Source: Candidatus Palauibacter scopulicola
GTDB lineage: Bacteria; Gemmatimonadota; Gemmatimonadetes; Palauibacterales; Palauibacteraceae
Reading direction: 5' to 3'
Assembly: GCF_947581915.1 (NCBI RefSeq)
Contig: NZ_CANPWG010000021.1
Coordinates: 62,001-126,000, forward strand
Length of the DNA: 64,000 nt
The first letter of the stretch is position 1. Each line of letters begins with the position of its first letter. The notes below the pieces were generated by a model, which was given only the letters and a program-made list of their open reading frames with translations, ran no database searches and was not told where the DNA came from. Shown here one piece after another: positions 48,055 to 63,245 of this stretch. The position numbers and the translations under genes are program-made.

Positions 48055-49704
48055 TCAGCCGAGGGTCGTAGCGAACGTCGGGGCACGGCGCTGGTTCGTG
48101 GCCTGCTCGTAGGCGTAGGCGATCCGCAGCAGCGTGGGCTCCGTCCAGGCGGGCCCGAAGAACGAGACGCCCGCCGGGAGTCCGCGCACGAAGCCCATCG
48201 GCACGGTGATGTCGGGATAGCCGGCGATCGCGGCGGGCGCGGCGGACGATCCGCCGTCGAGCCTGTCCCCCTTGATGTGGTCGGTCGGCCACGGGAGATC
48301 GCGCGTCGGAGCGACGATCGCATCCAGGTCGTGCTCCCGCGCCAGCCGGTCGATGCCATCTTCCCGGTTCGCGCGCTGGATGGTGGCGACGGCGTTCAAG
48401 TATTCGGGGTCCGTGAGCGGCCCCCTGGACTCGGACGCAATCAGACGCTCCTGGCAGAAATGCGGCATCTCCCGCTCGGCGTTTCGCTCGTTGAACTCGA
48501 TGACTTCGGCCAGACTCTTCACCGGTGCGTCCGGACCCAGGCCGGCGAGATAGGCGTTGAGGCCGGCCTTGAACTCGTATTCCAACAGCACGAGCGAAAG
48601 AGGGTCGTTCCACGCCGCCGCGTCCATGTTGGCCGGATCCACGATGACCGCGCCCTCGGCCCGCATGGCCTCAATCGCCTCGTCGAACAGCGCCAGCACG
48701 CGCGGGTCGAAGCCGGGGAAGCTGCGCACGACGCCGATGCGGGCGCCCTGAAGCCCGGCCGGGTCGAGGAACTGTGTATAGTCGGCGTGCGCGCGGCCCT
48801 CGCTCGCGGCGGTGGCCGGATCTCGCGGGTCCACGCCCGTGCAGGCGCCGAGCAGGGCGGCCGCGTCGCGAACGGTCCGGCACATGGGTCCCGCCGTGTC
48901 CTGCGAATGGGAGATGGGGATGACCCCGGCCCGGCTCCACAGTCCGACCGTCGGCTTGATGCCCACGATGCCGTTGCTCGACGAGGGACACATGATGGAA
49001 CCGCCCGTCTCCGTCCCCACCGTGAGCGCGCAGAGGTTCGCCGACGCCGCGACGCCGGAGCCCGAACTCGAACCGCACGGGTTCCGGTCGAGCGCGTAGG
49101 GGTTCCGGCACTGGCCGCCGCGCGCCGACCAGCCGCTCGTCGCCCTGATTCCTCGGAAATAGGCCCATTCCGAGAGATTCGCCTTGGCCGCGACGATGGC
49201 CCCGGCCTCGCGCAGCCGCGCGGCCACGAACGAGTCCTGCGGCGGGATGGAGCCCTCCAATGCGAGCGACCCCGCCGTCGTCGTCATCCGGTCGTGCGTG
49301 TCGATGTTGTCCTTCAGCGCGACCGGGATGCCGTGCAGCGGCCCGCGCACGTGCCCCGCCGCGCGCTCGGCGTCGAGTTCGTCCGCGATCGCGAGCGCGT
49401 CGGGGTTCGTCTCGATGATCGAGCGCAGTTCCGGTCCCTGGCCGTCCAGCGCCTCGATGCGTTCCAGGTACATCTCCGCGATCGAGCGGGCCGTGCGCTC
49501 GCCCGACGCCATGCTCGCCTGGAGCTCGTCGACCGTCACCTCGTCCAGTTCGAAGGGCGGCACCGCCGCTGCGGCGCCCGCGTCGCCAGCCGCGCCGGCG
49601 GCGGGGTCGTCGGACCCACCCTCAGGCGCGCAGCCCGAGGCCGCGGCCACCGCACCGAGTCCTCCAGCAACGGTGGCTCCGATGAAGCCTCGACGGTCTA
49701 TCAT
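48055..49704 (-). CDS. Secreted amidase (amidase-signature family), Tat lipoprotein
   Basis: A 549-residue protein. MIDRRGFIGATVAGG is a Tat signal, and AASGCAP provides a lipobox Cys (about residue 25). The amidase-signature triad is visible: Lys131 in ALKDNID, the GSSSGSG block at 211-217 with the bridging Ser, and Ser236 in TETGGSI as nucleophile. PSSSNGIVGIKPTVGLWSR follows as expected. It should hydrolyse amides outside the cytoplasm. The start overlaps the stop of the VPS10-like gene upstream (ATGA), and a strong terminator lies downstream, so the two form a unit. Confidence 0.92.
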   Translation of the reverse strand: MIDRRGFIGATVAGGLGAVAAASGCAPEGGSDDPAAGAAGDAGAAAAVPPFELDEVTVDELQASMASGERTARSIAEMYLERIEALDGQGPELRSIIETNPDALAIADELDAERAAGHVRGPLHGIPVALKDNIDTHDRMTTTAGSLALEGSIPPQDSFVAARLREAGAIVAAKANLSEWAYFRGIRATSGWSARGGQCRNPYALDRNPCGSSSGSGVAASANLCALTVGTETGGSIMCPSSSNGIVGIKPTVGLWSRAGVIPISHSQDTAGPMCRTVRDAAALLGACTGVDPRDPATAASEGRAHADYTQFLDPAGLQGARIGVVRSFPGFDPRVLALFDEAIEAMRAEGAVIVDPANMDAAAWNDPLSLVLLEYEFKAGLNAYLAGLGPDAPVKSLAEVIEFNERNAEREMPHFCQERLIASESRGPLTDPEYLNAVATIQRANREDGIDRLAREHDLDAIVAPTRDLPWPTDHIKGDRLDGGSSAAPAAIAGYPDITVPMGFVRGLPAGVSFFGPAWTEPTLLRIAYAYEQATNQRRAPTFATTLG

Positions 49705-52700
49705 GGGGCGTCGTCGGTGATGATGAGCATGCCGAGCCCGCGCAGCGTCTCGTTGAGCGCCGCGACGTCCGTCCTCACCAGGTCCTCCAGTTCGGCCAGG
49801 TGCGCCTCGAGCTGCTCGCGCAGCAGCGCCTTCACCTCCACCTGCTGGTCCGTGGGCTGGAAGTCCGCGATCGCCAGTGCGCCGACCAGGTAGCCGAGCT
49901 TCTGCAGGAGCCGGGCCTCGAAGCGCACCCCGTCCTGGCCCTGCCCCGTGAGGCGCAGGTCGACCATCGTCTCCTGCAGCTCGATCAGCTTCTGCCTCAG
50001 ATCCTCGACCGACGCGGAGAGTTCCTCGTCCTCCGCGAACCGCGACAGCGTCCCGAGCTGGACGCGCATCGCCTCCACGCGGTGCACGGCCTCGCCCGCC
50101 CGCACGACGTCCTCGCGCACCTCGCGGATGAAGGCGAGCTGCTCGGCGATGTCCGCCTCCGTCCCCGCCGAATGCGGGTCCTTCAGCACCGTGAGCGGCT
50201 GCTCGTGCGTCGCCCCGTCCACCGTGAGCCGCACCGTGTACTGTCCCGGCGGCATCAGCACCGAGATCTGCGCCCCTCCCGGCGCCGGCCGTCCCTCTTC
50301 CCCGACCTCGATGTGCTCGGCATACATCGGCGACGTGAGCATCCGGATCGGCTCGTTGGTCTCGTCCCTCAGGTCCCAGTGGATCCGGTTCACGCCCGCG
50401 CGGTTCGGCGCCTCCAGCGTGCGCACGACCGCCCCCGACCCATCCAGGATCTCGATCGTCGGCGTCTCGGAGGTCTCCCCCGCGAGCCAGTAGTTGATCG
50501 AGGCCCCGTACTCCGGATCCTCTCCGATCGTGGGGTCGTCGTACGGAATCGAGGGCGGCGTAATCGGCCGGAAGCGGTACGCGTCGCGCGGCGCGAACAG
50601 GTGCGAGGCCGACGCCATCACCTCGGGCGTCAACTGCTGGATCGGCGACAGGTCGTCGAAGATCCAGAACCCGCGCCCGTACGTGCCCACGACGAGGTCG
50701 TTGAAGTGCTCCTGGATGACGATCCCCGACACGGGCGCCGCCGGCAGGTTGTTCTGCAGCGGCTGCCAGTCGTCCCCGTCGTTGAAGGAGACGTAGATCG
50801 CGTTCTCCGTCCCCACGTAGAGCAGTCCCTGCCGCACCGGGTCCTCGATGATGATCTTCGTGTAGCTGAGCATGCTGGGCGGGATGCCGTCGACGATCCT
50901 CTCCCACGAGGCGCCGAAGTCGCGCGTCCGGTAGACGTGCGGGTCGCGGATGTTCACCTGGTGGCCGTCCGCCGCGATGTAGGCGGTGCCCGCGTCGTAG
51001 CGCGAGGGCGCGATGCTGCGCACGCCGATCCACTCCGGCAGCCCGGTGACGTTGCCCGTCACGTCCGTCCAGTTTTCCCCGCCGTCTCGCGTGATGTGGA
51101 GCTTGCCGTCGTTCGTGCCCGCCCAGATGAGGCCCGCCTCGATGGGCGACTCCGCGATGCCGAACACGGTGCCCGCGTACTCCACGCCGATGTTGTCGCC
51201 CGTGAGCCCGCCCGAGAGGCCCATCCGGCTGCGGTCGTTCAGCGTCAGGTCCGGGCTGATCACCTCCCAGCTCTGCCCGCGGTTCCGCGTGCGGTGCACG
51301 TGCTGGCTCCCCACGTAGACCGTCTCGTTGTCGTGCGGGGAGATGTGGACCGGCGCGTCCCAGATGAAGCGGTAGCGCACGCCGGAGGCCGGCCCCCGGC
51401 TCTGCTCGGGCCACACCTCGACGGCGCGGTACTGCCGCCGCTCCTCCTCGTAGCGGACGACGATCCCTCCCACCATCCCCGACCCCGAGGCCGAGGACCA
51501 CACGATGTCGGGGTCGGTCGGGTCCGGGGTGGCGAAGCCGCTCTCGCCGCCCCCCACGTGGTGCCACATGCCGCGCGGGATGTGGTTGATGCCCCGCACG
51601 CCGAGGATCCGGCTGTTGCTGGGGCCGCGATAGGTCGGCTCGTCCTGCTTGTTCCCGAGCACGTTGTAGGGGACCGCGTTGTCCACCGTCACGTGGTACA
51701 TCTGCGCGTTCGTGAGCCGCTGCCGGAACCACGTCTTCGTGCGGTTGATCGAAATCGAGAGCCCCTGGTCGTGCGCCACGATCATGCGGTCCGGGTTCGT
51801 GGGGTCGATCCACATGTCGTGGTGATCGCCGCCGGGCGCCTGCGGACGCGGCGTCACATCCAGCGTCCGCCCGCCGTCCGTCGACACCGTGAAGGAGGCG
51901 GTGAGGAAGTAGGCCTCGTCCTCGTCATCCGGCGAGATCACGACGCGCGAGTAGTAGTGCGGCCGCCCCATTGCGTTCCGGTTGCGCGTGATGAGCGACC
52001 ACGTGCGGCCCCCGTCCTCCGAGCGCCACAGCTGGCCGTCCTCGGTCGGCTCGCCGTCCCAGGGAATCCCGTCCCCCGTCTCCAGCATCGCGTAGATCCG
52101 CTGCGGGTTCGAGGGCGCGACCGCCACGGCCACCTTGCCCACGGGCTTCTTCGGCAGGCCGATCGTGTTGTCCGGCCCGTTCAGCTTCTCCCACGTATCC
52201 CCGCCGTCGCGCGACACGTGCAGACCTCCGCCCGGGCCGCCGCTCGTGCGCCCCCAGGTGTGGATCTCGAGCTGCCACGTGCCCGCGAAGAGGATGCGCG
52301 GGTTCGTCGGATCCATCGCGATGTCCGAGCACCCCGTGTCCTCGTCGATGAAGAGGACGTGCTCCCAGCTCTCTCCGCCGTCCGTCGTCCGGTAGACGCC
52401 CCGCTCCGGCTGCGGCCCGTAGGAGTGGCCCAACGCGCACACGTAGACGATGTCCGGGTTCGCGGGGTGGATGACGAGCCGCGGGATCCGCCCCGTGGGT
52501 TCGAGTCCCATGAGGGTCCACGTCTCCCCCGCGTCCGTCGACTTGTAGACGCCCTGCCCGACCGAGACGTGGCTGCGGATCTTCCCTTCCCCCGTCCCCG
52601 TCCAGACGATGTTGGGGTCCGTCGGAGAGACGGCGAGCGAGCCGATCGACTGCACCGGCTGGTCGTCGAACATCTCGTCCCAGTTCACGCCGCCGTCCGT

Positions 52701-52922
52701 CGTCTTGTAGATCCCGCCCGAGGCCGCGCCCACGTAGTAGGTGTACGGCTGGCCGGGGATCCCCGCCGCCGCGCTGAAGCGATTCCCCTCGGGACCGATG
52801 TTCCGCCACCGGAGCGTTTCGTAGGCCGCCGGATCGGGAGCGGCCTGCGCCGCCAGCGGCGCGACGGCCGGAAGCGAGAGGATGAGAAGCGCGAAGAACG
52901 CGCAGAAAGGTCGGACGCGCAT
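49701..52922 (-). CDS. Secreted VPS10/BNR-repeat beta-propeller protein
   Basis: A 1073-residue protein with a signal peptide ending APLAAQ (about residue 25). At least ten BNR/Asp-box turns of the kind SxDxGxTW occur (KTTDGGVNW, KSTDAGETW, RTTDGGESW, SRDGGDTW, RSEDGGRTW, ITRDGGENW and others), giving two joined propellers like the VPS10/sortilin and glycosyl-hydrolase-like proteins common in this lineage. From about residue 830 there is a beta domain and a coiled segment (EDVVRAGEAVHRVEAMR to the end). No catalytic acid pair is certain. The start was chosen at 52922 because the longer reading adds a chain without features. It is co-translated with the amidase and may bind a polymer that the amidase attacks. 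Confidence 0.85.
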   Translation of the reverse strand: MRVRPFCAFFALLILSLPAVAPLAAQAAPDPAAYETLRWRNIGPEGNRFSAAAGIPGQPYTYYVGAASGGIYKTTDGGVNWDEMFDDQPVQSIGSLAVSPTDPNIVWTGTGEGKIRSHVSVGQGVYKSTDAGETWTLMGLEPTGRIPRLVIHPANPDIVYVCALGHSYGPQPERGVYRTTDGGESWEHVLFIDEDTGCSDIAMDPTNPRILFAGTWQLEIHTWGRTSGGPGGGLHVSRDGGDTWEKLNGPDNTIGLPKKPVGKVAVAVAPSNPQRIYAMLETGDGIPWDGEPTEDGQLWRSEDGGRTWSLITRNRNAMGRPHYYSRVVISPDDEDEAYFLTASFTVSTDGGRTLDVTPRPQAPGGDHHDMWIDPTNPDRMIVAHDQGLSISINRTKTWFRQRLTNAQMYHVTVDNAVPYNVLGNKQDEPTYRGPSNSRILGVRGINHIPRGMWHHVGGGESGFATPDPTDPDIVWSSASGSGMVGGIVVRYEEERRQYRAVEVWPEQSRGPASGVRYRFIWDAPVHISPHDNETVYVGSQHVHRTRNRGQSWEVISPDLTLNDRSRMGLSGGLTGDNIGVEYAGTVFGIAESPIEAGLIWAGTNDGKLHITRDGGENWTDVTGNVTGLPEWIGVRSIAPSRYDAGTAYIAADGHQVNIRDPHVYRTRDFGASWERIVDGIPPSMLSYTKIIIEDPVRQGLLYVGTENAIYVSFNDGDDWQPLQNNLPAAPVSGIVIQEHFNDLVVGTYGRGFWIFDDLSPIQQLTPEVMASASHLFAPRDAYRFRPITPPSIPYDDPTIGEDPEYGASINYWLAGETSETPTIEILDGSGAVVRTLEAPNRAGVNRIHWDLRDETNEPIRMLTSPMYAEHIEVGEEGRPAPGGAQISVLMPPGQYTVRLTVDGATHEQPLTVLKDPHSAGTEADIAEQLAFIREVREDVVRAGEAVHRVEAMRVQLGTLSRFAEDEELSASVEDLRQKLIELQETMVDLRLTGQGQDGVRFEARLLQKLGYLVGALAIADFQPTDQQVEVKALLREQLEAHLAELEDLVRTDVAALNETLRGLGMLIITDDAP

Positions 52923-53073
52923 GTTGTGCCTCGCCGGGTTGAGCTGAACGAATGCCGGGAATGTGCCGGGCAAGCACGGTGCGCCGGGCAAGCCCGGCTG
53001 ACAAGACCCGTCCGCCCCGCCCAGAGCCACCGGAGGCCGCGACTCGAAAGTGGCTGCGGTCCGCCAGCAGGCC

Positions 53074-53079
53074 TATCGT
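53074..53079 (+). promoter_or_regulatory. -10-like box of the first Uma2 gene, nine bases from the ATG
   Basis: TATCGT at 53074-53079 is followed by nine bases ending GACC and then the ATG at 53089. The other two Uma2 copies have TATGAT at the same distance and the same GACC before the ATG. No good -35 match is seen here. No ribosome site is present, which fits a leaderless or nearly leaderless mRNA. Confidence 0.4.
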
Positions 53080-53088
53080 GAGTAGACC

Positions 53089-54312
53089 ATGTCACTTCCC
53101 TACATCACCTGGCAGGATGCCCTCCTGATGCCGGAGGACGGACGTCGCCACGAAGCGGTCGATGGCGAGTTGTACGGCACGCCGGCTCCGAGCACGCGCC
53201 ACCAGATTGTCAGCGGGCGTCTCCTCACGGCGCTGGGCGACATCCTGGACGATCAGGGATACGGCGAGATGTTCATCACCATGACGGCCGTCGAGTTCCC
53301 TGAGACGCGCGAAGGCGTCATGCCGGACCTCATGTTCGTGTCCAACGAACGGCGGGGGATCATCACGGAGAACTGGCTCGTCGGCGCACCGGACCTGGTG
53401 ATCGAGATCACTTCTCCCGTGACGGAAGACCGGGATCGCGGGATCAAGCTCGACTTGTACAGGAGGCAGGGAGTTCGCGAGTACTGGATCGTCGATCCCG
53501 ACCGGAACGTGGTCGACGTGTGGCGGTTCGGGGAGGAGCCGGAGGAAGAGCGCTTCAGGACGGAGCTACCCGTTCGGCTTGGGGCGGATCAGGTGGGCGC
53601 GGTCGACCTGGAGGTCGTTTTCTCGCGAGACCTGTTCCGGTTCCGCGAAGCGGTGGTCCACCGAAGCGGTAGGCGGCGCTCCGTTGAGAGCGGGATGATG
53701 AAGCCGGCGACCATAGGGGCGGACTTGGAGACGACTCCCGCCCGGAGCTATGATGTGTCGACCATGCAAATCCCCTCGATCACGTGGCAGGACGTCCAGC
53801 AGATGCCGGACGACGGCAATCGCTACGAGGCGATCGAGGGCAGTAGCTACATGACCCCCGCCCCGACGTTCCGTCATCAGCGCGTAAGCCACCGGCTCGG
53901 CAAGGCGCTCGACGAGGTTCTGGAACAACCCGGGCACGGGGTCGTAGTGCCCGCCCCCTTCGGCGTCGAGTTCCCCGCCACCGGAGAAGGTGTGCAGCCC
54001 GACCTGCTGTTTGTCTCCAACGAGCGGCGCGGACTCATCACGAACGCGGGGCTCACGGGCGCACCGGACCTCGTCGTCGAGATCCTCTCACCTTCCACCG
54101 CCAGCCGCGACCGGGGCCTCAAGCTCCGCCTCTACGAGCGTCAAGGCGTGCGCGAGTACTGGGTCGTGGATGCGGACGAGAACACCGTTGACGCGTGGCG
54201 GTTCGCGGAGGATCCCCAGCACGAACGCTTTGCGGAGACCCTCCCGGTCAGACTCGGAACCGAAGAGGTCGGCTCGATCGACCTGGAAGCCGTGTTCGCG
54301 CCGGACCTCTGA
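53089..54312 (+). CDS. Tandem double Uma2 (DUF820) nuclease-like protein
   Basis: A 407-residue protein holding two complete Uma2 domains (about residues 1-182 and 226-407) of the PD-(D/E)XK nuclease fold. Each shows MPDDG/MPEDG near its start, GVxPDLxFVSNERRG, APDLVxEIxSPxT, a K-L-x-LY segment and GVREYWxVDxD. The catalytic set would be Asp (PDL), Glu (VIE, VVE) and Lys (IKLDLY, LKLRLY). The linker (about 183-225) is the translated form of what looks like an ancestral gap: the other copies stop right after VFxPD(L/S), while the first domain reads on. The second domain has its own promoter-like sequence and ATG at 53764 and may also be made alone. Uma2 proteins have no settled role. Confidence 0.88.
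   Translation: MSLPYITWQDALLMPEDGRRHEAVDGELYGTPAPSTRHQIVSGRLLTALGDILDDQGYGEMFITMTAVEFPETREGVMPDLMFVSNERRGIITENWLVGAPDLVIEITSPVTEDRDRGIKLDLYRRQGVREYWIVDPDRNVVDVWRFGEEPEEERFRTELPVRLGADQVGAVDLEVVFSRDLFRFREAVVHRSGRRRSVESGMMKPATIGADLETTPARSYDVSTMQIPSITWQDVQQMPDDGNRYEAIEGSSYMTPAPTFRHQRVSHRLGKALDEVLEQPGHGVVVPAPFGVEFPATGEGVQPDLLFVSNERRGLITNAGLTGAPDLVVEILSPSTASRDRGLKLRLYERQGVREYWVVDADENTVDAWRFAEDPQHERFAETLPVRLGTEEVGSIDLEAVFAPDL
53684..53763 (+). repeat. 80-base block duplicated upstream of Uma2 copies 2 and 3 (first member)
   Basis: The block starts TTGAGAGC and ends with GACC immediately before the ATG at 53764. The same arrangement, also 80 bases to the ATG, occurs at 54879-54958. The conserved parts include CCCGCCCGGAGCTATGATGTG near the end. 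Here the block is read through as part of the double Uma2 protein. Confidence 0.75.
53725..53754 (+). promoter_or_regulatory. Predicted internal promoter for the second Uma2 domain
   Basis: TTGGAG at 53725-53730 and TATGAT at 53749-53754 are 18 bases apart. Transcription would start about two or three bases before the ATG at 53764. It lies inside the coding sequence of the fused protein, so it could give a short second-domain product of 182 residues. Confidence 0.5.
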
Positions 54313-54315
54313 TCT

Positions 54316-54678
54316 TCAGATCCAGACGTCCGACTCGGCGGTGAGGCCGCCGCGTTCGTCGCCGGTGTTCACGACGCCGCGGGGTTCGACGAGCATCAGC
54401 TTCACCTCCTCCTCGGCGACCGGGCGGTGCTTCACGCCGCGGGGGACGACGTAGAGTTCGCCGGGGCCGATCTCGACGGCGCCGTCCGGGAGGTCGATGC
54501 GGAGGGTGCCCTCGAGGACGAAGAACGCCTCGTCCGTATCCGCGTGGTCGTGCCACACGAACTCGCCCTTCACCCGCGCGATCTTGAACAGGTAATCGTT
54601 GAGTTCGGCGACGACGCGCGGCTGCCAGTAGTCGGGCAGCAGGCCGAACTTCTCCTCCAGGTTGACGGCTTCCTTCAT
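54316..54678 (-). CDS. Cupin-domain protein
   Basis: A 120-residue single cupin. Motif 1 is FVWHDHADTDEAFFVLEG with His, His and Glu as metal ligands, and motif 2 is PGELYVVPRGVKHRPVA with the fourth His. The size and motifs match small metal-binding cupins of the mannose-6-phosphate-isomerase type that act as isomerases, dioxygenases or sensors. The start at 54678 has GGAGA about eight bases upstream. It sits between the two Uma2 genes on the opposite strand, three bases from the stop of the double Uma2 gene. No substrate can be deduced. Confidence 0.88.
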   Translation of the reverse strand: MKEAVNLEEKFGLLPDYWQPRVVAELNDYLFKIARVKGEFVWHDHADTDEAFFVLEGTLRIDLPDGAVEIGPGELYVVPRGVKHRPVAEEEVKLMLVEPRGVVNTGDERGGLTAESDVWI

Positions 54679-54878
54679 CCCCGACTCTCCGCTCCGTGGT
54701 TCGCTTCGGTCGTCACTTGAGGCTCCCGCAGGTCCATATCCCGATCTCCATGAGCAACACAACGATGCGTCATACCGAGTCACGGTATGCCTCGTAGGTG
54801 CGGGGCGTCGAGCGGGAGCGTCGAGCCGGAATTGCTCGCGGCTCATTCCGCCCCGTCGCCAGAGGGGCGGCATTGCAG

Positions 54879-54958
54879 TTGAGAGCTGGATGAGCAGGGG
54901 CCGGACCGTGGGGTTGGACTTTGGTTTCACCCCCGCCCGGAGCTATGATGTGCAGACC
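54879..54958 (+). repeat. 80-base block duplicated upstream of Uma2 copies 2 and 3 (second member)
   Basis: Second member of the pair described at 53684-53763. It has the same TTGAGAGC start, CCCGCCCGGAGCTATGATGTG near the end, and GACC before the ATG at 54959. Both members have identical length to the ATG, which points to duplication of gene plus promoter. Confidence 0.75.
54921..54949 (+). promoter_or_regulatory. Predicted promoter of the third Uma2 gene
   Basis: TTGGTT at 54921-54926 and TATGAT at 54944-54949 have the ideal 17-base spacing. The start of transcription would fall two or three bases before the ATG at 54959, and no ribosome site is present. A leaderless mRNA is therefore likely. 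Confidence 0.55.
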
Positions 54959-55516
54959 ATGCCGCAATCCTCGACCGCACCCGTCACCTGGCTCGACGCC
55001 CAGCGAATGCCGGACGACGGCAACCGTTACGAGGTCATCGGGGGCAAGCTGTACGTGACCCCCGCACCCTCGATCCGCCACCACCGCATCACCAGACGGC
55101 TCTTCCGCGCCCTCGATCCTCTGCTCGTGAAGGCAGAACGCGGAGAGCTGTTCTGGGCACCCGTCGGGGTTGAGTTCCCGGTCACGGGCGAGGGAGTCGA
55201 GCCCGACCTGATGTTCGTGTCCGCCGAGCGGAGGGGGATCGTGGGGAAGGACTGGATCCGGGGCGCGCCCGATCTGGTGGCCGAGATCCTCTCCCCCTCC
55301 ACGGCCCGCCGCGACCGGAGCAAGAAGCGGGACCTGTACGAGCGCCACGGCGTGCCCGAGTACTGGATCGTCGATCCGGACGCGAACGCCGTGGATGTGT
55401 GGCGCTTCGGTGAAGATCCCGAGCACGAGCGCCACACGACAACGCTCCCCGTGCGGCTCGGCTCGGAGCGCCTCGGCACCATCGATCTGCGGGACGTCTT
55501 CCGCCCCGACTCCTGA
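54959..55516 (+). CDS. Uma2 (DUF820) family nuclease-like protein
   Basis: A 185-residue single Uma2 domain. It has RMPDDGNRYEVIGGKLYVTPAP near the N terminus, GVEPDLMFVSAERRG, APDLVAEILSPSTARRD, KKRDLY and GVPEYWIVDPDANAVDVWRFG. The catalytic Asp, Glu and Lys of the PD-(D/E)XK fold are all kept. It is a close paralogue of the second domain of the double Uma2 gene, and both have the same upstream block. The end VFRPDS followed by the stop marks where the first Uma2 copy has lost its stop. The next gene follows after about 20 bases. Confidence 0.9.
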   Translation: MPQSSTAPVTWLDAQRMPDDGNRYEVIGGKLYVTPAPSIRHHRITRRLFRALDPLLVKAERGELFWAPVGVEFPVTGEGVEPDLMFVSAERRGIVGKDWIRGAPDLVAEILSPSTARRDRSKKRDLYERHGVPEYWIVDPDANAVDVWRFGEDPEHERHTTTLPVRLGSERLGTIDLRDVFRPDS

Positions 55517-55536
55517 CAATCCAATACCGCAAGCGG

Positions 55537-56607
55537 GTGGAAGCCGCTTACCGGCACTTTTTTCGCGACATTGAGATCGATCCGGAGACGGGGACGACGC
55601 CGCGGCAAGCTGACCGGAAGTTCGCGACCTATCCGTACATCGGCTCGCTGTACGGCACGGATCCGGATGTGAAGCGGCTGCTCGTCGTCGGACTCGACAT
55701 CGGGTCAGACGAGACGCCGGGTCGGCTCCAGCACTTCGAGGAGAGGCGCCAAGCGATCGAGTGCAAGCCTCTGCCTTCGCTCAACCCTCACATCGCGGGC
55801 ACCTACTTCACGGCGTTGAAGTACGCCTTCCCAAGTCACGAGTGGGACCGGGTCAAGGACCGCGATCAGACATGCCGGGCGATCTTGAGAGCCGGTTACG
55901 CACTCGGAAGCAATCCGCTTTCCCATGTCGCCCTGACGAACTTCTACAAGTGGGTCACGATCGGCCGACGGAACAAGGGTGGCGGGCAGGATCGCAAGCA
56001 CGTCGACCGACACCTCGAAACGGCGTTGTTCCTGCAGGAAGTGCGGGTGCTTGCGCCGCACGTCGTCGTGTTCCAGAGCGCGGCCTTCGACAAGGCTCGG
56101 TTCCGGCAAGTCCGTGATTCCATCGCGCCTGAGATCGAGTGGCACGTCCTGGTACATCCGTCGTGGCGCGGCAGTCAGCGGCCGAAACACATCACGCAGC
56201 CGCGACTGAGCAGCAGGGACCCGAGCGATGACTCACGCTCGCCGCCGCCGGTCGTCGCGGACCATGAGGTGTCTCAGCCAGCGGAAACCGAGGGCTACGG
56301 GGGGCTCTTCAGGGACGATGCATTGGTACTGGGCTTGATCGCCTTGGGTGGTCAGAACCAGGAAGTCCGACTCCACGACGCGGTGGCCCATGTACTCGAG
56401 CACGGGTACGCCGGGCGGCGCGGCGGGAAGGGTTCCGCGATCTACTTCGCGTGTCGCTGGCTGGCGAAACATGGGAAGCCTGTCCGCGGCTTCGTCATCA
56501 CATCTCCGCGTCGTGGCTACTACCGGCTCGAGAAGGCGACAAGTGCGCGGATTGCGGCATGGAGCATTGGCGTGAATGGATCGCGGTGTTTGCCGAGACA
56601 CGATTAG
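55537..56607 (+). CDS. Uncharacterised protein, possibly uracil-DNA-glycosylase-fold plus winged-helix tail
   Basis: A 356-residue protein with a GTG start; the frame is open a little further upstream, so the start is not firm. The first 230 residues recall the uracil-DNA glycosylase superfamily by order of motifs: LLVVGLDIGSDE (site of the water-activating motif), SLNPHIAGTYF, LTNFYKW, LAPHVVVFQSAAF, and the late HPSW motif in VLVHPSWRGS. This is a pattern match only; the catalytic residues are not the usual ones. Residues about 265-345 (LVLGLIALGGQNQEV to GYYRL) look like a separate winged-helix-type DNA-binding tail. It follows the third Uma2 gene by 20 bases, and a joint DNA-processing role is possible. 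No function is asserted. Confidence 0.5.
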   Translation: MEAAYRHFFRDIEIDPETGTTPRQADRKFATYPYIGSLYGTDPDVKRLLVVGLDIGSDETPGRLQHFEERRQAIECKPLPSLNPHIAGTYFTALKYAFPSHEWDRVKDRDQTCRAILRAGYALGSNPLSHVALTNFYKWVTIGRRNKGGGQDRKHVDRHLETALFLQEVRVLAPHVVVFQSAAFDKARFRQVRDSIAPEIEWHVLVHPSWRGSQRPKHITQPRLSSRDPSDDSRSPPPVVADHEVSQPAETEGYGGLFRDDALVLGLIALGGQNQEVRLHDAVAHVLEHGYAGRRGGKGSAIYFACRWLAKHGKPVRGFVITSPRRGYYRLEKATSARIAAWSIGVNGSRCLPRHD

Positions 56608-56631
56608 CCTCGTCCGGCTCCGCCTCGCTCC

Positions 56632-56910
56632 TCAACCGATCACAGTGTCGGAGTGGATGCACAGCTCTTCGCACCGCCCTACGCCCAGACGATCCAGGTG
56701 TACCTGCAATCCCTCGCGCCGGGCGAGCTTGAATGCCGGGACCATATCGGAGTCCCGAGTGACGACCGCGACATCAGTAACGAGGCGTTTGAGCGCGAGA
56801 GACGCGATGTCCAGACCGATCCGCATGTCGACGCCTTTCTGCTCGAAGCGGGGCCGCAGGTCGTCCGGAGCCAGTGGTGCCGGACCCTTGCCTCGGGCGA
56901 ACCTCGCCAC
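56632..56910 (-). pseudogene. Truncated NYN-domain (LabA-like) ribonuclease remnant
   Basis: About 92 residues remain. RFEQKGVDMRIGLDIASLALKR and VVTRDSDMVPAFKLARREG are the second half of NYN/PIN-like RNases, including the Asp pairs that bind metal. The first half, with the first Asp of the active site, is missing, and the frame meets a stop at 56950-56952. A GTG at 56910 could start a short protein, but it would lack part of the catalytic site. Its other end runs to the stop at 56632. The rest of the 493-base space between 56608 and 57100 contains only the palindrome described next and no other gene that I can see. It is probably decayed. Confidence 0.72.
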
Positions 56911-56918
56911 AAATGAAC

Positions 56919-56978
56919 GGCCCCTGCGTCCGTTTGGATTAGCCGACCGTTATACGGTCGACCCGGCGCGCAGGGGCC
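56919..56978. repeat. Nested palindrome next to the NYN remnant
   Basis: The outer arms are GGCCCCTGCG (56919-56928) and CGCAGGGGCC (56969-56978), a perfect 10-base inverted repeat. Inside is a second perfect palindrome, CGACCGT-TAT-ACGGTCG (56944-56960). The 60-base structure lies between the NYN remnant and the minus-strand operon starting at 60658. It could be a terminator-like element, a protein site, or the footprint of a small mobile element. It has no T-tract. Confidence 0.6.
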
Positions 56979-57100
56979 TGTTGAATCTCACCCTCAGGGT
57001 ACCTGCCCGTTAGGGGTCGTGCAACTTCGTCAGTTCACCCCCCTCGTCCCGCAATCGTCTCACTCCCAGCGCCATAGGACGCAGTCGAAAACGACGTTGC

Positions 57101-60100
57101 TCATCGGTCCTCCCGGGGCGGGATCACGCGGGTGAGGTAGTCGGCGAGTTCCGCTTCGGGGGCTTCGGCGCGTCCTTCCTCGGGGGACGGCGGATAGCCG
57201 GACAGCGTTCGGGCCGGGAGGGGTACGACGCGGTCGCCGGTGGCGGTGTTGAGGTCGCCGTCCTTCACCCAGCCGTCGGAGTAGATGAGGAAGGTGCGCC
57301 CCCAGCCCTCGGGCAGCGCGGGAAACGCCTCGGCATCGAAGCGGAGGGTGATCTCGTCGCCGGCGTTCTGGATCACGTAGCGGTCGTCGCCCTCGGCCAC
57401 GAGGTCGGTCACGTCGCCGAAGCGGGTGTAGAGGCCGAACAGGTCGTGCCAGCGGGGCTCGACCGTGACGGAATCGTAGTCGAACCAGTGCGGGCCGTAG
57501 CGGCCGCCCTTCCTGAACTCGCGCGCGAAACCGCGATAGTGGATGTCCGCGCTCCGGGGCGCCAGCGACGTCACGCGCGCCTCGGCCGCACCCGGGTGGG
57601 CGGGGCCGGTCGTGAAGAAGGCCTCGTCCCAGTAGACCATGAGGTTCGTGCGGATTCGCACTCTTCGGTCGTCCGTCGGGAAGAGACCGCGCAGGTCGGC
57701 GACGACCGTCTTGTCCTTGCCCGACGGGAAGCTCAGGCCGGGGATGGCGGGCTGCCACTCGCCGCCGGGGCCCATCACGTCGAGTTCCGGGAAGTGCGGC
57801 GCGAGAGCGTCCGACTGGCCCATCGCCACGTTGATGCTTGCGTCGGTGGGGAAAATCCAACCGGTGAGGAAGAGGGTGACATCGCCGGACGCGGCCTCGG
57901 GGCCGAGGTCGAGGATGAGTTCGTGCGGCTCGGCGATCCCCTGGAAGCGGCCGGGGCGGAAGGACGAGACGTAGTCGAAGTCGCGTTCGGCGAGCGCCTC
58001 GCGGTGATCGCGTCCGTTCTCGTCCGTGGCCGAGACCGGGGCGTGCCGTTCGCCCACCCGCCACAGTTCGAGGTCGATGGGCGCGGGGGGGATGAAGGCC
58101 TCGTTCACGTACACGTCGATCTCGGAGGGATGGTCGACGGCGACGAGGTTCACGCCGTCCACGTAGATCGTCTCCCACAGTTCCTCGGTGATCTGCATCA
58201 CGTACTCGCCGTCCAGCGGCTGGAGCACGCCGTCGGGGAGGCGCCGGTACTCCTGCGAGGGGAAGGCGGGGGCGTAGGCGCGCTGGCCGCCGCCGAGGAT
58301 GCCGAGGGGCATGCCGAGCGCGCTCTTCCACATCATGTCGCCCACGAACTCGAACCCGTCGCCGTCCCACACGTAGAGCATGGGGCACGAACCCTTGAGC
58401 GTCTGCTCCTCGACGAGGTCCTGGTCCGTGCCCGGGAAGTAGAGGTCCTGCGGGACGCCGTTCGGCCAGTACACGCGGACGACATCGGCCTTCAGGCGGC
58501 CGTCGAGGCCGATGAGGGTGGTGGGGTCCGTGACGGTGTGGACCTGGAAGAGGTCTCCGGCCCGCACCTCGACGCGCGCCCCGATCCCGAAGCGGTTGTT
58601 CTTGCGGCTTCCCTCGCCGAGTCCCGCGAGGTCGAGTCGGAAGTAGTGGTTCGCGTTCCCGCCGTCGTTACGGAAGAGGGTTGGGTGCCCGTCACCACCG
58701 AGGAGGAGAAGGTCGGCGTCGCCGTCCTCGTTGTAATCGAACGAACGGACATCACGGAAATCTCCCGAGGCAACATCGGGGAGAAACTCGTCGGCCGGCA
58801 CGAGGCGCCCATTCCCTTCATTGCGGAAGAGCCGCAACCCGGGGCCAGTCGTGAAGCCAACGCCCGAGGCCGGACCCGGGGGCGAGCCGGCGACGGCGAG
58901 GTCCAGCCGACCGTCGTTGTCGAAGTCGACCAGGAGCAGGTCGCGCGGGACGAGACCGTTCAGCGGCACCGTCGCCGCGAGCGCGAAATCGTCGGCCGAT
59001 CCGTGCAGGAGGCGAACGCGGTCCCCTCCGGCGGCCACGATATCGAGCCGGCCGTCGCCGTTCACGTCGCCGACCGCCACGGCCAGCGCTTCCTCCGCAG
59101 CCGCCTCGCCCTCCGCGCCGAGACGGTCGGTGCGGTCGGCGAAGGTGGCCGCGCGCTCGTTGTCGAGCAGGCGGAGGCCGCCCGAGCCTTCCGCGAGGAC
59201 AATGTCGAGATCGCGATCATTGTCGAGGTCCCCGAAGGCCGCGTCGCGCGTGTCGGCGTCCGCCGGGCCGGCGAGTCCGAAGTCGACCGCCATCTCCGCG
59301 AAGGTGAGGTCGCCGTTGTTGCGGAAGAGGCGGTTCGCACCGGTGTGCGGTTCGAACAGGTCGAGGTCGCCGTCCTGGTCCAGATCCGCCGCGAAGACGT
59401 CATTGGCCGCGCCGCCCGCCTCCCCCGTGGCAGCCGATGGGAGCGCGATCTCCCGGAAACCTCCGGCTGGGTCGTTGTGGTACGCGCGCGGCGAGCGCCC
59501 CGCGAACCACACGTCGAGACGGCGATCGTCGTCGAAATCGACCCAGATCGCCGCCGCCTCTGCCTCCCCCGCGTCAAGGGTGCCGAGATCACCGGAGGTG
59601 TCCACGTAGCGGCCGAGGTCGATGCGAAGGACGCGCCCTATCCCGCTGTGGCTCCAGAGAAGGTCTTCGTCGCCGTCGCCATCGAAGTCGCCCGTTGCGA
59701 TCGTGGCGGGGGGAGGGGTTCCGTCGTGCGCCGGCAGGATGCCCACCAGCCCGGCGAGGGTCGACGCGTTCGTGTAGCGGAGGGAGGCAAGCACGGCCTC
59801 GGGCTCCTGGACGCGGAGGGAGACGAGGAAGCTGAAGTCGAGTGCGGCGACGCCCGCGAGGGGGCCGCCCGGCTGCCTCAGTTCGTCGAGGCTCGCCTGG
59901 TAGGGCGAGGTGACCTCGAACGCCGCGCGGAAATCCGCGAATTGGCCGATCGCCGTCGATGCGTCGCCATCCAGGAGGGCATCTTCGGCGGCCTCGAAGG
60001 CCGCGCGCGGCCCGGGGCGGAAGTCCGGGGCGACCTGCCGCAGACTCTCGATCGTGCCCAGGGCGGCGTCGAGTTCGCCGCGCGCGAGTTGCGCATCGGC

Positions 60101-60658
60101 GAGCGCGGCGAGGGCGGCCAGGTTGCCCGGCGCGGCCGCCGCCAGGCGCGCCAGAACGTCCGCGCGGGCGTCCGAGTCCACTCCCGCCGCCCGGGCCTCC
60201 ACCTCCGCCAACCCCCACAGGCTGCGCGCGTGGCCCGGGTCCGCCGCCAGCGTCTCGTCCAGCAGCGCCCGCGCCTCCCCGAAATCGCCCGTCTCGGTCC
60301 GCAGCGTGGCGAGCGCCAGCGTCAGCTCCGGATCGTCCGGCGCCCGCTCGCGCGCCTCGAGAAGGTTCTCCTCGGCCGCCTCGTAGTCCGCCGCCTTGAG
60401 CGCCGTGAGGCCGAGTCCCGCGTACCCCGCCGCCTCCGCCGGCGCCATCTCGACGAGGCGCTGGTAGTCGGACCGTGCGTCCTCCAGGCGGTCCTGCTGA
60501 AGCGCCGCGTCCGCCGTCCCCCGCGTGGCGAGAATCTCGGCCAAGGAAGCCTCCGGCACGGGCGCCCCCGCCTCCCCGCAGCCAACGATCAGCGCGAGGA
60601 AGGTCAACCCGCGAACTCGGATCGGGGCCGGACTGCCAGACCGCTTCGGTTCCGTCAC
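57101..60658 (-). CDS. Large lipoprotein with TPR, FG-GAP and ASPIC/UnbV-type regions (CRTAC1-like)
   Basis: A 1185-residue protein starting at a GTG with GGGAGG about eight bases ahead. FLALIVGCGE is a lipobox. Residues about 45-270 are TPR-type helices (GLGLTALKAADYEAAEENLLEA and relatives). From about 315 to 690 there are FG-GAP/VCBS repeats with calcium-binding DxDxDG loops (DFDGDGDED, DLDQDGDLD, DLDNDRDLD, DVNGDGRLD, DFDNDGRLD, DYNEDGDAD). An ASPIC/UnbV-like stretch follows near 700-760 (RFGIGARVEV, DVVRVYWPNG). The last third (about 780-1185) is a beta-rich region without a known match. It should be a cell-surface protein; the function is unknown. Confidence 0.85.
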   Translation of the reverse strand: MTEPKRSGSPAPIRVRGLTFLALIVGCGEAGAPVPEASLAEILATRGTADAALQQDRLEDARSDYQRLVEMAPAEAAGYAGLGLTALKAADYEAAEENLLEARERAPDDPELTLALATLRTETGDFGEARALLDETLAADPGHARSLWGLAEVEARAAGVDSDARADVLARLAAAAPGNLAALAALADAQLARGELDAALGTIESLRQVAPDFRPGPRAAFEAAEDALLDGDASTAIGQFADFRAAFEVTSPYQASLDELRQPGGPLAGVAALDFSFLVSLRVQEPEAVLASLRYTNASTLAGLVGILPAHDGTPPPATIATGDFDGDGDEDLLWSHSGIGRVLRIDLGRYVDTSGDLGTLDAGEAEAAAIWVDFDDDRRLDVWFAGRSPRAYHNDPAGGFREIALPSAATGEAGGAANDVFAADLDQDGDLDLFEPHTGANRLFRNNGDLTFAEMAVDFGLAGPADADTRDAAFGDLDNDRDLDIVLAEGSGGLRLLDNERAATFADRTDRLGAEGEAAAEEALAVAVGDVNGDGRLDIVAAGGDRVRLLHGSADDFALAATVPLNGLVPRDLLLVDFDNDGRLDLAVAGSPPGPASGVGFTTGPGLRLFRNEGNGRLVPADEFLPDVASGDFRDVRSFDYNEDGDADLLLLGGDGHPTLFRNDGGNANHYFRLDLAGLGEGSRKNNRFGIGARVEVRAGDLFQVHTVTDPTTLIGLDGRLKADVVRVYWPNGVPQDLYFPGTDQDLVEEQTLKGSCPMLYVWDGDGFEFVGDMMWKSALGMPLGILGGGQRAYAPAFPSQEYRRLPDGVLQPLDGEYVMQITEELWETIYVDGVNLVAVDHPSEIDVYVNEAFIPPAPIDLELWRVGERHAPVSATDENGRDHREALAERDFDYVSSFRPGRFQGIAEPHELILDLGPEAASGDVTLFLTGWIFPTDASINVAMGQSDALAPHFPELDVMGPGGEWQPAIPGLSFPSGKDKTVVADLRGLFPTDDRRVRIRTNLMVYWDEAFFTTGPAHPGAAEARVTSLAPRSADIHYRGFAREFRKGGRYGPHWFDYDSVTVEPRWHDLFGLYTRFGDVTDLVAEGDDRYVIQNAGDEITLRFDAEAFPALPEGWGRTFLIYSDGWVKDGDLNTATGDRVVPLPARTLSGYPPSPEEGRAEAPEAELADYLTRVIPPREDR

Positions 60659-60719: not shown

Positions 60720-63245
60720 CTAACTTACCGGCCGCACCCTCTTCCTGAGCACGAAGAGCCCCTCGCGCATGCTCGTGACGATAATGGTGCCGCTCTCGAA
60801 GAACGGATACGTGCTCCACGCCCCGCCGAAGCCCGGACCCTCCTGATACGGGGCCGTGTCGAAGAAGCCCACTTCGCGCGGGTTCACGGGATCGGAGATG
60901 TCGAGCACGTGGAGGCCGTAGCGGTAGTTGGCCTGATACGCGAAGCCGTCCTTCAGGTAGAGATTGTGGGCACTGGCGGGAAGCGAGCCCATGAACTGGT
61001 TGACAAGCACCGGATCCTCCAGGTCGCTCAAGTCCCAAATCAATGTCCGCGTGGTTTCGACCGCGCCGGAGATCACGTCAGACTCGTCGTCCTGATAGAA
61101 GTAGCGGTGATCGGGAGTGAGCCAGCCCTGGTGGATGTAGGCGGCATTGGGTGACGTCGCGCGAGACACCGCGTAGGGGTTCTCCTTGTCGGTCACGTCG
61201 GCGATCTGAAAGTACCGTCCGTTCGAGTTGAGGCAAATCTCGCGCCCCTCGTATCGTTCGTCGGGACCCCGATAGAGCACGCACTGCGCGTCGTGGGTGC
61301 CGCCGTCCTCCTGAAAGCACCCAACGAACTCGGGATTCCGGGGATCGTTGATGTCGATCATGTGAAGACCGCCGCCGCAGGATTCGCGCCCCGCGCCGCT
61401 GCCCACCGCGTAGGCGAACCCGGTTTCCTCGTTGATCACGATGTTGTGCGAGCTCGCCACCCCACGGTAGTGGACGTCGGGCTCGAAGAGCGCGGGCATG
61501 TCGCCGGGCGCCACGTCGCGCAGGCGGGTGAGGTCGAAGACCTGCATGCCGTGGTCGCCCGCTCCGTCGGCCACGATGAAGGCGTGGTCCTTGTACGTCT
61601 TGATGTCGCGCCACAGCTGCGACGGGGGCGTGCCGTCGGGTTTGGGCAGATCGCCGACCAGGACCGGACGGGTGGGATCCGACAGGTCGATGAACGAGGT
61701 GCCGTCGTTGCGTCCCACCAGCGCGTACTCGCGCCCGGTCTCTCGGTCGGTCCACCCCCAGTTGTCGTTGGCGCGGACGCCCCGGGCGCTGCCCTCGGCC
61801 CGCAGAATGGAGTTGGGAATGAACGCGAGCAGCTCGACTTCGCTGCAATCGAAGGGGCCGACGCTGCCCTCCACGCAGCGGCGCTCCTCGCCGACCATGG
61901 GCTCGAGGGCATCGGGGGCGCTTGCGAGCATGCCCGCCGCCGCCCAGCCGGGGCCGCTGTCCTCGAAGAGGTGGACGGAGCCCGACTGATGGTGCATGCC
62001 GGGCGCTCCAACCGCCGCGAGCGCTCCGTCCGCGACCACCAGTCCGCCGAAACGGTCGCGCTCCACCGTCTCTTCGCGAGGGAGGGCGATGCGGCGCGGC
62101 CGCCGGGGAAGGGTGCCGTCCGCTTCGGCCTCGTAGACCAGGACGGCACCGGTCTCGTTCTCGCGCTCCGTTGGCGCGCCCACCCACACGTCGGGTCCGG
62201 AGAAGGCGACCGCCGCGCCGAAGCGGTCGCCCTCTGCGCCGCCTTCGAGCACTATCCGCTCCTCGGCCACCCACGAACCGGAGCCGACCTCCCAGGCGTA
62301 CACGAGGACCGCCCCGCGATCGGCGTCCGCGCCCGGCGCGCCGATCAGAAGCCGGTCGCCCTCTGCGGAGAGCGCGATACCGAAGCCGGAGCCCGCGCCT
62401 TCCGCCGACCCTATCGATCCGGTTTCCGTCCAGCCGTCCCCACTCAGGTCGAAGCGGTAGACGCGGCCCGTCCCCTCGCGGCTCTCGCCCCGGGCCTCGC
62501 CGCCTCCCTCGATCCGCGGACCCCAGCCCGGAGCACCGACGAGCAAGCCGCGTTCCGTGAAGGCCACCACCGCTCCGAAGCGGTCGCCCGGGCCGCCGCC
62601 CGAAGGGCGCAACTCCGTCCGCTTCGTCCACCGGCCGTCGGCGCCGCGCCGGTACGCGTGGATCGTGCCCGCCGCACCGGCATCGTCCCGGACGTCCGGC
62701 CCTCCTCCGCCCGGACCATCGGCCGGGTCGGGCGTGCCCACCATCAGCCACTCGCCCTCCGCCGCCAGCGCCAATCCGAAGTCGGTCCCGCAATAGCCGT
62801 CGAAGCGGCAGTCCGGTGAAAGACCGCGGACCTCATCGGCCGTGATCGCGTCCCGCCATACCCATCCGCCGCCCTCGCCACGCCCGAAGATCTGGATGCC
62901 GGTCCCGCGCATGCCGACGAAGAGATGGTCGCCGGCGGCGGCCAGCACCGTGCCAAAGCCATCGGCGATCTCGGGGTCCGGCCCGCGAATCACGCCGGAC
63001 TCCATCCACCCCTCCTCTCCTCTTGTGTACACATACACGGCACCGGGGCGGAAGTTGGTGGTCGGCTCGGCTACGAGGAGCTCGCCTTCGTGGATCAGCA
63101 CCGAGTGGCCGAACGAGCCCGACTGGCCCGCGACCGGAGTGCCGGCGAAGACGGCGGCGGCGCACGCGATCACGAAGAGCAGGGCGGGCTGCGGCGTGGC
63201 GGGACGGAGGGCGGCGGCGAGGCGCGCGGGGCTCGATGGGGTCAT
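60720..63245 (-). CDS. Choice-of-anchor B family protein with FG-GAP-like first half
   Basis: An 841-residue secreted protein with a signal peptide ending GTPVAGQ (about residues 34-40). Residues about 45-410 are repeated propeller blades of the form FGxxLxxxGDxLxxGxPGxxxxxGAVxVY (ALSAEGDRLLIGAPGAD is one). From about 455 the choice-of-anchor-B core begins: DNWGWTDRETGREYALVGRNDGTSFIDLSDPTRPVLVG, then VASSHNIVINEETGFAYAVG, THDAQCVLYRGPDERYEGRE, and LHVLDISDPVNPREVGFFD. These LVIVD-like repeats form a second propeller. The family is common in marine and Gemmatimonadota-like bacteria and has no known role. It is transcribed in the same direction as the TPR/FG-GAP gene. Confidence 0.88.
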   Translation of the reverse strand: MTPSSPARLAAALRPATPQPALLFVIACAAAVFAGTPVAGQSGSFGHSVLIHEGELLVAEPTTNFRPGAVYVYTRGEEGWMESGVIRGPDPEIADGFGTVLAAAGDHLFVGMRGTGIQIFGRGEGGGWVWRDAITADEVRGLSPDCRFDGYCGTDFGLALAAEGEWLMVGTPDPADGPGGGGPDVRDDAGAAGTIHAYRRGADGRWTKRTELRPSGGGPGDRFGAVVAFTERGLLVGAPGWGPRIEGGGEARGESREGTGRVYRFDLSGDGWTETGSIGSAEGAGSGFGIALSAEGDRLLIGAPGADADRGAVLVYAWEVGSGSWVAEERIVLEGGAEGDRFGAAVAFSGPDVWVGAPTERENETGAVLVYEAEADGTLPRRPRRIALPREETVERDRFGGLVVADGALAAVGAPGMHHQSGSVHLFEDSGPGWAAAGMLASAPDALEPMVGEERRCVEGSVGPFDCSEVELLAFIPNSILRAEGSARGVRANDNWGWTDRETGREYALVGRNDGTSFIDLSDPTRPVLVGDLPKPDGTPPSQLWRDIKTYKDHAFIVADGAGDHGMQVFDLTRLRDVAPGDMPALFEPDVHYRGVASSHNIVINEETGFAYAVGSGAGRESCGGGLHMIDINDPRNPEFVGCFQEDGGTHDAQCVLYRGPDERYEGREICLNSNGRYFQIADVTDKENPYAVSRATSPNAAYIHQGWLTPDHRYFYQDDESDVISGAVETTRTLIWDLSDLEDPVLVNQFMGSLPASAHNLYLKDGFAYQANYRYGLHVLDISDPVNPREVGFFDTAPYQEGPGFGGAWSTYPFFESGTIIVTSMREGLFVLRKRVRPVS

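Follow-up and report, generated by a model that had tools for sequence, protein, structure and literature searches.

Uma2 proteins (DUF820, COG4636; PF05685) are predicted PD-(D/E)XK nucleases, encoded in cassettes of tandem paralogues and once proposed to act as solo toxins (Makarova et al. 2009, PMC2701414). Two other phenomena bear on the locus described here: leaderless genes of Deinococcus-Thermus, in which a -10 motif adjoins the ORF (PMC12340547), and loss of stop codons, which gives proteins C-terminal extensions (PMC4494051). We analysed a stretch of 64,000 nt from Candidatus Palauibacter scopulicola, of a marine genus of Gemmatimonadota (NZ_CANPWG010000021.1, positions 62,001 to 126,000), hereafter the window, whose own numbering is used for all feature positions. 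A phylum-wide scan found Uma2 in 238 of 395 genomes, as read from the best matches listed; the genome studied here has four such domains, three in the window and one on another contig. Two of those in the window belong to one gene, which is like the rest of the family in that both domains exceed the Pfam cut-off, lie in a tandem Uma2 cassette and share the fold of solved Uma2 proteins, and unlike the usual member in that two domains occupy one chain, with a linker built from an intergenic control block. In the literature on promoter-retaining gene fusions we found nothing close to this arrangement. The reading we favour, with a probability of about 0.6, is that a domain-1 gene was joined to a second Uma2 gene through the control block of the latter, giving a two-domain main product and leaving an embedded promoter that may still fire.

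The fused ORF of the window is real (Table 1). A profile search placed two stretches of PF05685 within it (223 bits, E=2e-66, curated cut-off 27), and the first copy reads VFSRDLFRF where copies 2 and 3 end in VFAPDL-stop and VFRPDS-stop, so it does continue past the point at which its neighbours terminate, as a first-pass annotation of this DNA had noticed. The AlphaFold model contained two confident folded domains, with residues 184-227 disordered, and a Foldseek search with this predicted model matched the solved Uma2 structures 6okh, 9y1l, 3ot2 and 1wdj at probability 1.00. Residues E247, D305, E331 and K345 were invariant, with E22, D80, E106 and K120 as their equivalents in domain 1 (read by eye); a catalytic role for these acidic and lysine positions is assumed from the superfamily. 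Because no stop lies between the domains, translation of domain 1 must run into domain 2, and the main product is most likely a two-domain protein with predicted nuclease-like folds. The same 407-codon arrangement was found in five of the 17 genomes of the genus, representing five species. Every genome concerned is a metagenome assembly, but the ORF recurs, free of indels and stops, in assemblies from five different species, so assembly error is rejected; with both domains under purifying selection and the conserved acidic residues and lysine retained, an assembly or pseudogene artefact has next to no credence. Both domains are under purifying selection and the linker much less so: pN/pS was 0.66 in the linker, as against the far lower domain values in Table 1, and variable sites by codon position numbered 8/9/7 in the linker versus 43/23/107 in the domains (p=0.002). 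The five linkers contained no stops and no indels.

Table 1. Features of the fused Uma2 gene and its surroundings (window numbering).
Feature	Position	Strand	Basis or remark
-10-like TATCGT 5' of domain 1	53074..53079	+	9-nt spacing to ATG as elsewhere; conserved block absent
Fused Uma2-Uma2 gene, 407 aa	53089..54312	+	single ORF, 407 codons + TGA; PF05685 x2; same 407-codon ORF in L034, L035, L036, L039
Uma2 domain 1 (codons 1-182)	53089..53634	+	own paralogue clade; pN/pS 0.20
Linker part 1 (codons 183-198), 48 nt	53635..53682	+	unlike other spacers; sits where neighbours' stop falls
Linker part 2 (codons 199-225), the 81-nt Uma2 control block read in frame	53683..53763	+	78/81 to G009 intergenic block; conservation profile
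Direct repeat GTTGA-N6-GATGA, 11-bp spacing, within block; possible regulator site	53683..53698	+	
-35-like TTGGAG	53725..53730	+	
-10-like TATGAT, 9 nt 5' of internal ATG	53749..53754	+	
Uma2 domain 2 (codons 226-407), internal ATG at 53764	53764..54312	+	pN/pS 0.20
Control block of stand-alone copy 3 (TATGAT at 54944-54949)	54878..54958	+	
Uma2 copy 3, stand-alone, 185 aa	54959..55516	+	profile search

The linker spans 43 residues (codons 183-225) and is composite. It had been attributed as a whole to sequence matching the untranslated block upstream of copy 3, which holds for its last 81 nt (27 of the 43 codons), where 59 of 81 positions agree against a background of 22-31 of 81 for upstream regions that lack the block, and fails for its first 48 nt, which match nothing there and showed no resemblance to any spacer tested. 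Agreement with the copy 3 block was 31/40 over the last 40 nt, and outside the block it was at chance level (13/44 positions). The closest match came from G009, another genome of the genus, where the block is intergenic, lies before a stand-alone Uma2 gene of this locus and differs at only three positions; beyond the block edge identity was 11/44, so homology stops exactly at that edge, and the linker is thus largely a former promoter-like region. In G013, too, the locus has the block in an intergenic position, 5' of a stand-alone gene. Among the four relatives with the fusion, the linker proved to be shared rather than an unrelated sequence.

Almost all stand-alone Uma2 genes in the genus have the 81-nt block in front of them. 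Across 22 of these genes, conservation ran at ~0.7-1.6 bits per column inside the block and 0.1-0.3 outside, with an abrupt edge at -81, which shows that the block match is not due to chance. Its layout comprises a direct repeat with 11-bp spacing, a -35-like TTGGA, an 18-nt spacer, TATGAT at -15 to -10 and ACC before the ATG. TANNNT was present at -15 in 25 of 26 blocks and the repeat GTTGA-N6-RTGA (half-sites TTGA and ATGA, 11 bp apart) in 24 of 26 (shuffled mean 0.003), the blocks being related copies rather than independent draws, from source clades that differ by at least a third in protein sequence. In other genera of the family, four genomes carried TATAAT or TACAAT at the same spacing to the ATG, and three of the four kept the 11-bp repeat, there six bases closer. 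The repeat, which looks like a putative regulator site, was located at 54878-54893 of the window and upstream of Uma2 genes in L033-L053 and L075-L077, and is conserved across genera. Exact copies of GGAGCTATGATGTG in the genome were found only before Uma2 genes, and the motif TA[TC][AG]AT, sought among 237 candidate ATGs of long ORFs, occurred only at Uma2 starts; a role of the block as a genome-wide promoter is rejected, since exact matches were confined to Uma2 upstream regions. Read in the frame of the ATG, the block had 27 codons without a stop in 24 of 25 stand-alone genes. Its translation as an N-terminal extension of such genes was also rejected, as variable sites in the single genes at the locus (10/11/13 of 26/27/27) showed no codon-position pattern, and an in-frame TAG in the block of G006 copy 2 contradicts it too.

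The spacing of TATGAT to the ATG predicts a leader of ~3 bases, and the layout as a whole supports the block as a putative near-leaderless promoter. It resembles the leaderless genes of Deinococcus-Thermus in having TANNNT just 5' of the start codon, which implies a leader that is very short or absent, here on sequence grounds, but the spacing to the start is 9 nt rather than about 6-7, the block has a -35-like hexamer and an 11-bp direct repeat, and it is restricted to Uma2 genes. The same bases could be parsed differently, with TATGATGTG as a spacer, not a promoter, between a Shine-Dalgarno sequence (CGGAG[C/G]) and a GTG start codon that lies in frame 9 nt 5' of the ATG. A GTG does follow the hexamer in every block-bearing copy, with GGAG(G) 6-7 nt 5' of this hexamer-adjacent GTG, but TATAAT or TATGAT is not required of a mere spacer, and neither is TANNNT in all blocks but one nor conservation that extends to -81 and takes in the direct repeat and -35-like hexamer. 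Copy 1, moreover, keeps the hexamer-to-ATG spacing even though its GTG is out of frame. We regard the Shine-Dalgarno and GTG parsing as improbable and less well supported than a near-leaderless promoter.

How the two genes came to be joined was addressed from their phylogeny. Domains 1 and 2 are old separate paralogues in separate clades, with a branch of 0.52 leading to domain 1, and a recent tandem duplication of domain 1 into domain 2 is rejected by the tree. Each domain forms one clade across the five species, making a single origin likely. The first-pass annotation had the fusion arise by loss of a stop codon; adjacent Uma2 copies are indeed fused, but the loss itself was not directly seen, and a domain 1-domain 2 pair split by a stop was found in none of the 17 genus genomes. 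A split pair with almost identical spacing occurs in G006, but in the tree its members fall among other paralogues. With the exact pair split in no genome, stop loss is indistinguishable from insertion of a stopless domain-1 gene, and since the domains are old separate paralogues, such an insertion 5' of the block is equally possible; on this evidence, stop-codon loss is a plausible origin. The fusion resembles described C-terminal extensions (PMC4494051) in that non-coding sequence 3' of a gene has turned coding, and differs in that the extension continues into another Uma2 gene and includes that gene's promoter-like block, is found in five species and has a loss event that is presumed. Because the block is nearly always open in the ATG frame, fusion through it would be mechanically easy once the frames agree.

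Comparison of relatives, as had been proposed, showed that this locus exists in single, split and fused versions. All five fused genes are flanked by a VPS10/sortilin-like gene and by a cupin and FG-GAP gene, and the locus elsewhere holds one Uma2 gene (G009, G013), two or three (G006, G007, G014) or a five-domain array (G012); in a sixth genome, G004, the contig breaks off within copy 3, so absence of the fusion there carries no weight. A second Uma2-Uma2 fusion in G012 (L040 8388-9506, minus strand) encodes 373 aa with a linker of ~12 residues and no block between its domains, and is independent of that in the window. Operon-like pairs were also seen, in which an extra Uma2 gene starts 13-14 nt after the previous stop with no block and an ACCATG end (L035 8842-8855, L039 8527-8540, L041 7694-7706). 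Directly after copy 3 lies a 356-codon ORF (55537-56604) that had no Pfam match and adjoins copy 3 also in L034, L036, L039 and L123. Presence of the fusion was discordant with the rpoB tree, requiring three changes, and trees of the flanking genes (sortilin-like on the left, FG-GAP on the right; window 49701-60658 and relatives) disagreed on the closest species. Within the window's gene, domain 1 and the linker match L035 and L039, and the first half of domain 2 matches L036: positions 53764-54036 differ from L036 at 18 sites versus 43-46 from L034, L035 and L039, and domain 1 shows the reverse. The rpoB discordance, the conflict between flank trees and this mosaic suggest that the locus undergoes recombination between species. 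Disagreement between the flank trees is what one would expect if recombination in the flanks moved the Uma2 array from one species to another.

In the window's species, the -35-like and -10-like hexamers and the ATG of the second domain are all kept, as had been claimed. We compared nine stand-alone genes at the locus with the five fused genes, taking -26 to -1 as the core (26 sites) and the remaining 55 sites as the rest of the block. In the stand-alone set, which leaves out the promoter of the G012 double gene (TATCAT), the core was variable at 3/26 sites versus 28/55 further up (p=0.0006), and the -10 hexamer did not vary. In the fused genes the values were 3/26 and 8/55 (p=1.0), with few changes and low power. 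Two of the three variable core sites in the fused genes fall in the -10, both synonymous in the fused frame: the hexamer is TATGAT in the window and L035, TACGAT in L034 and L039, and TATGAC in L036, the last with loss of the normally conserved final T. TACGAT was also found in one stand-alone gene (G014 contig C40), so this change may be tolerated. Of all variable sites in the block, 2/11 fell in the -10 in fused versus 0/31 in stand-alone genes (p ~0.06, our own Fisher estimate). These small counts suggest that constraint on the putative promoter is relaxed in the fused genes; gene conversion between copies could hide constraint.

Bacterial genes with internal starts, such as cheA and mcrB, yield full-length and C-terminal products. 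The Uma2 fusion is like them in offering one frame and possibly two products, and unlike them in that its putative internal start would rely on a promoter inherited from a once separate gene. The first-pass annotation had envisaged such a gene, in which the full ORF would give a double-domain and the embedded promoter a single-domain protein, and selection might be keeping both. The direct repeat, TTGGAG and TATGAT are all intact in the window and L035, the repeat, -35-like hexamer and internal ATG persist in all five fused genes, and the 9-nt spacing of -10 to ATG is conserved across genera of the family; but the -10 is altered in three of the five, including the L036 change, and conservation of the core there does not exceed that of the sites around it, so we hold this view to be unlikely. 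A more elaborate possibility, which we consider more doubtful still, is that the 81-nt block would serve both as regulated promoter and as translated tether, a regulator on the 11-bp repeat within the coding sequence switching between two-domain and one-domain enzymes. At the other extreme, the internal promoter may be dead and the fusion protein the sole product, with the block persisting as an ordinary linker. The -10 changes, the linker pN/pS with its flat codon-position pattern and the disorder in the AlphaFold model favour a silent promoter, but TATGAT and the -35-like hexamer are intact in two of the five genes, and silence is not readable from sequence alone; this too we think unlikely, to about the same degree as a selected two-product gene.

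Under the favoured reading, a Uma2 domain-1 gene would have come to lie directly 5' of the control block of a stand-alone Uma2 gene, with no in-frame stop, between the VPS10/sortilin-like gene and the cupin gene. Almost every copy of the block lacks a stop in the frame of the gene, so the two ORFs would have been joined through it. We infer that the main product is one chain in which a disordered tether links two PD-(D/E)XK folds, and that the block within the ORF is what remains of a near-leaderless promoter, which may still fire in the window's species to give a 182-aa single-domain protein but which selection probably no longer clearly maintains across the fused genes.

A single locus thus provides a natural series of single gene, split pairs, operon-like pairs, fusion with a promoter inside and fusion without one, in which the passage of an intergenic promoter into coding sequence can be followed, including how long the promoter keeps working. 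From it, a conserved control element of the genes of Uma2, a widespread family, can be defined as well, and the direct repeat within that element offers a handle on the putative regulator, and hence on the conditions under which these predicted nucleases would be produced.
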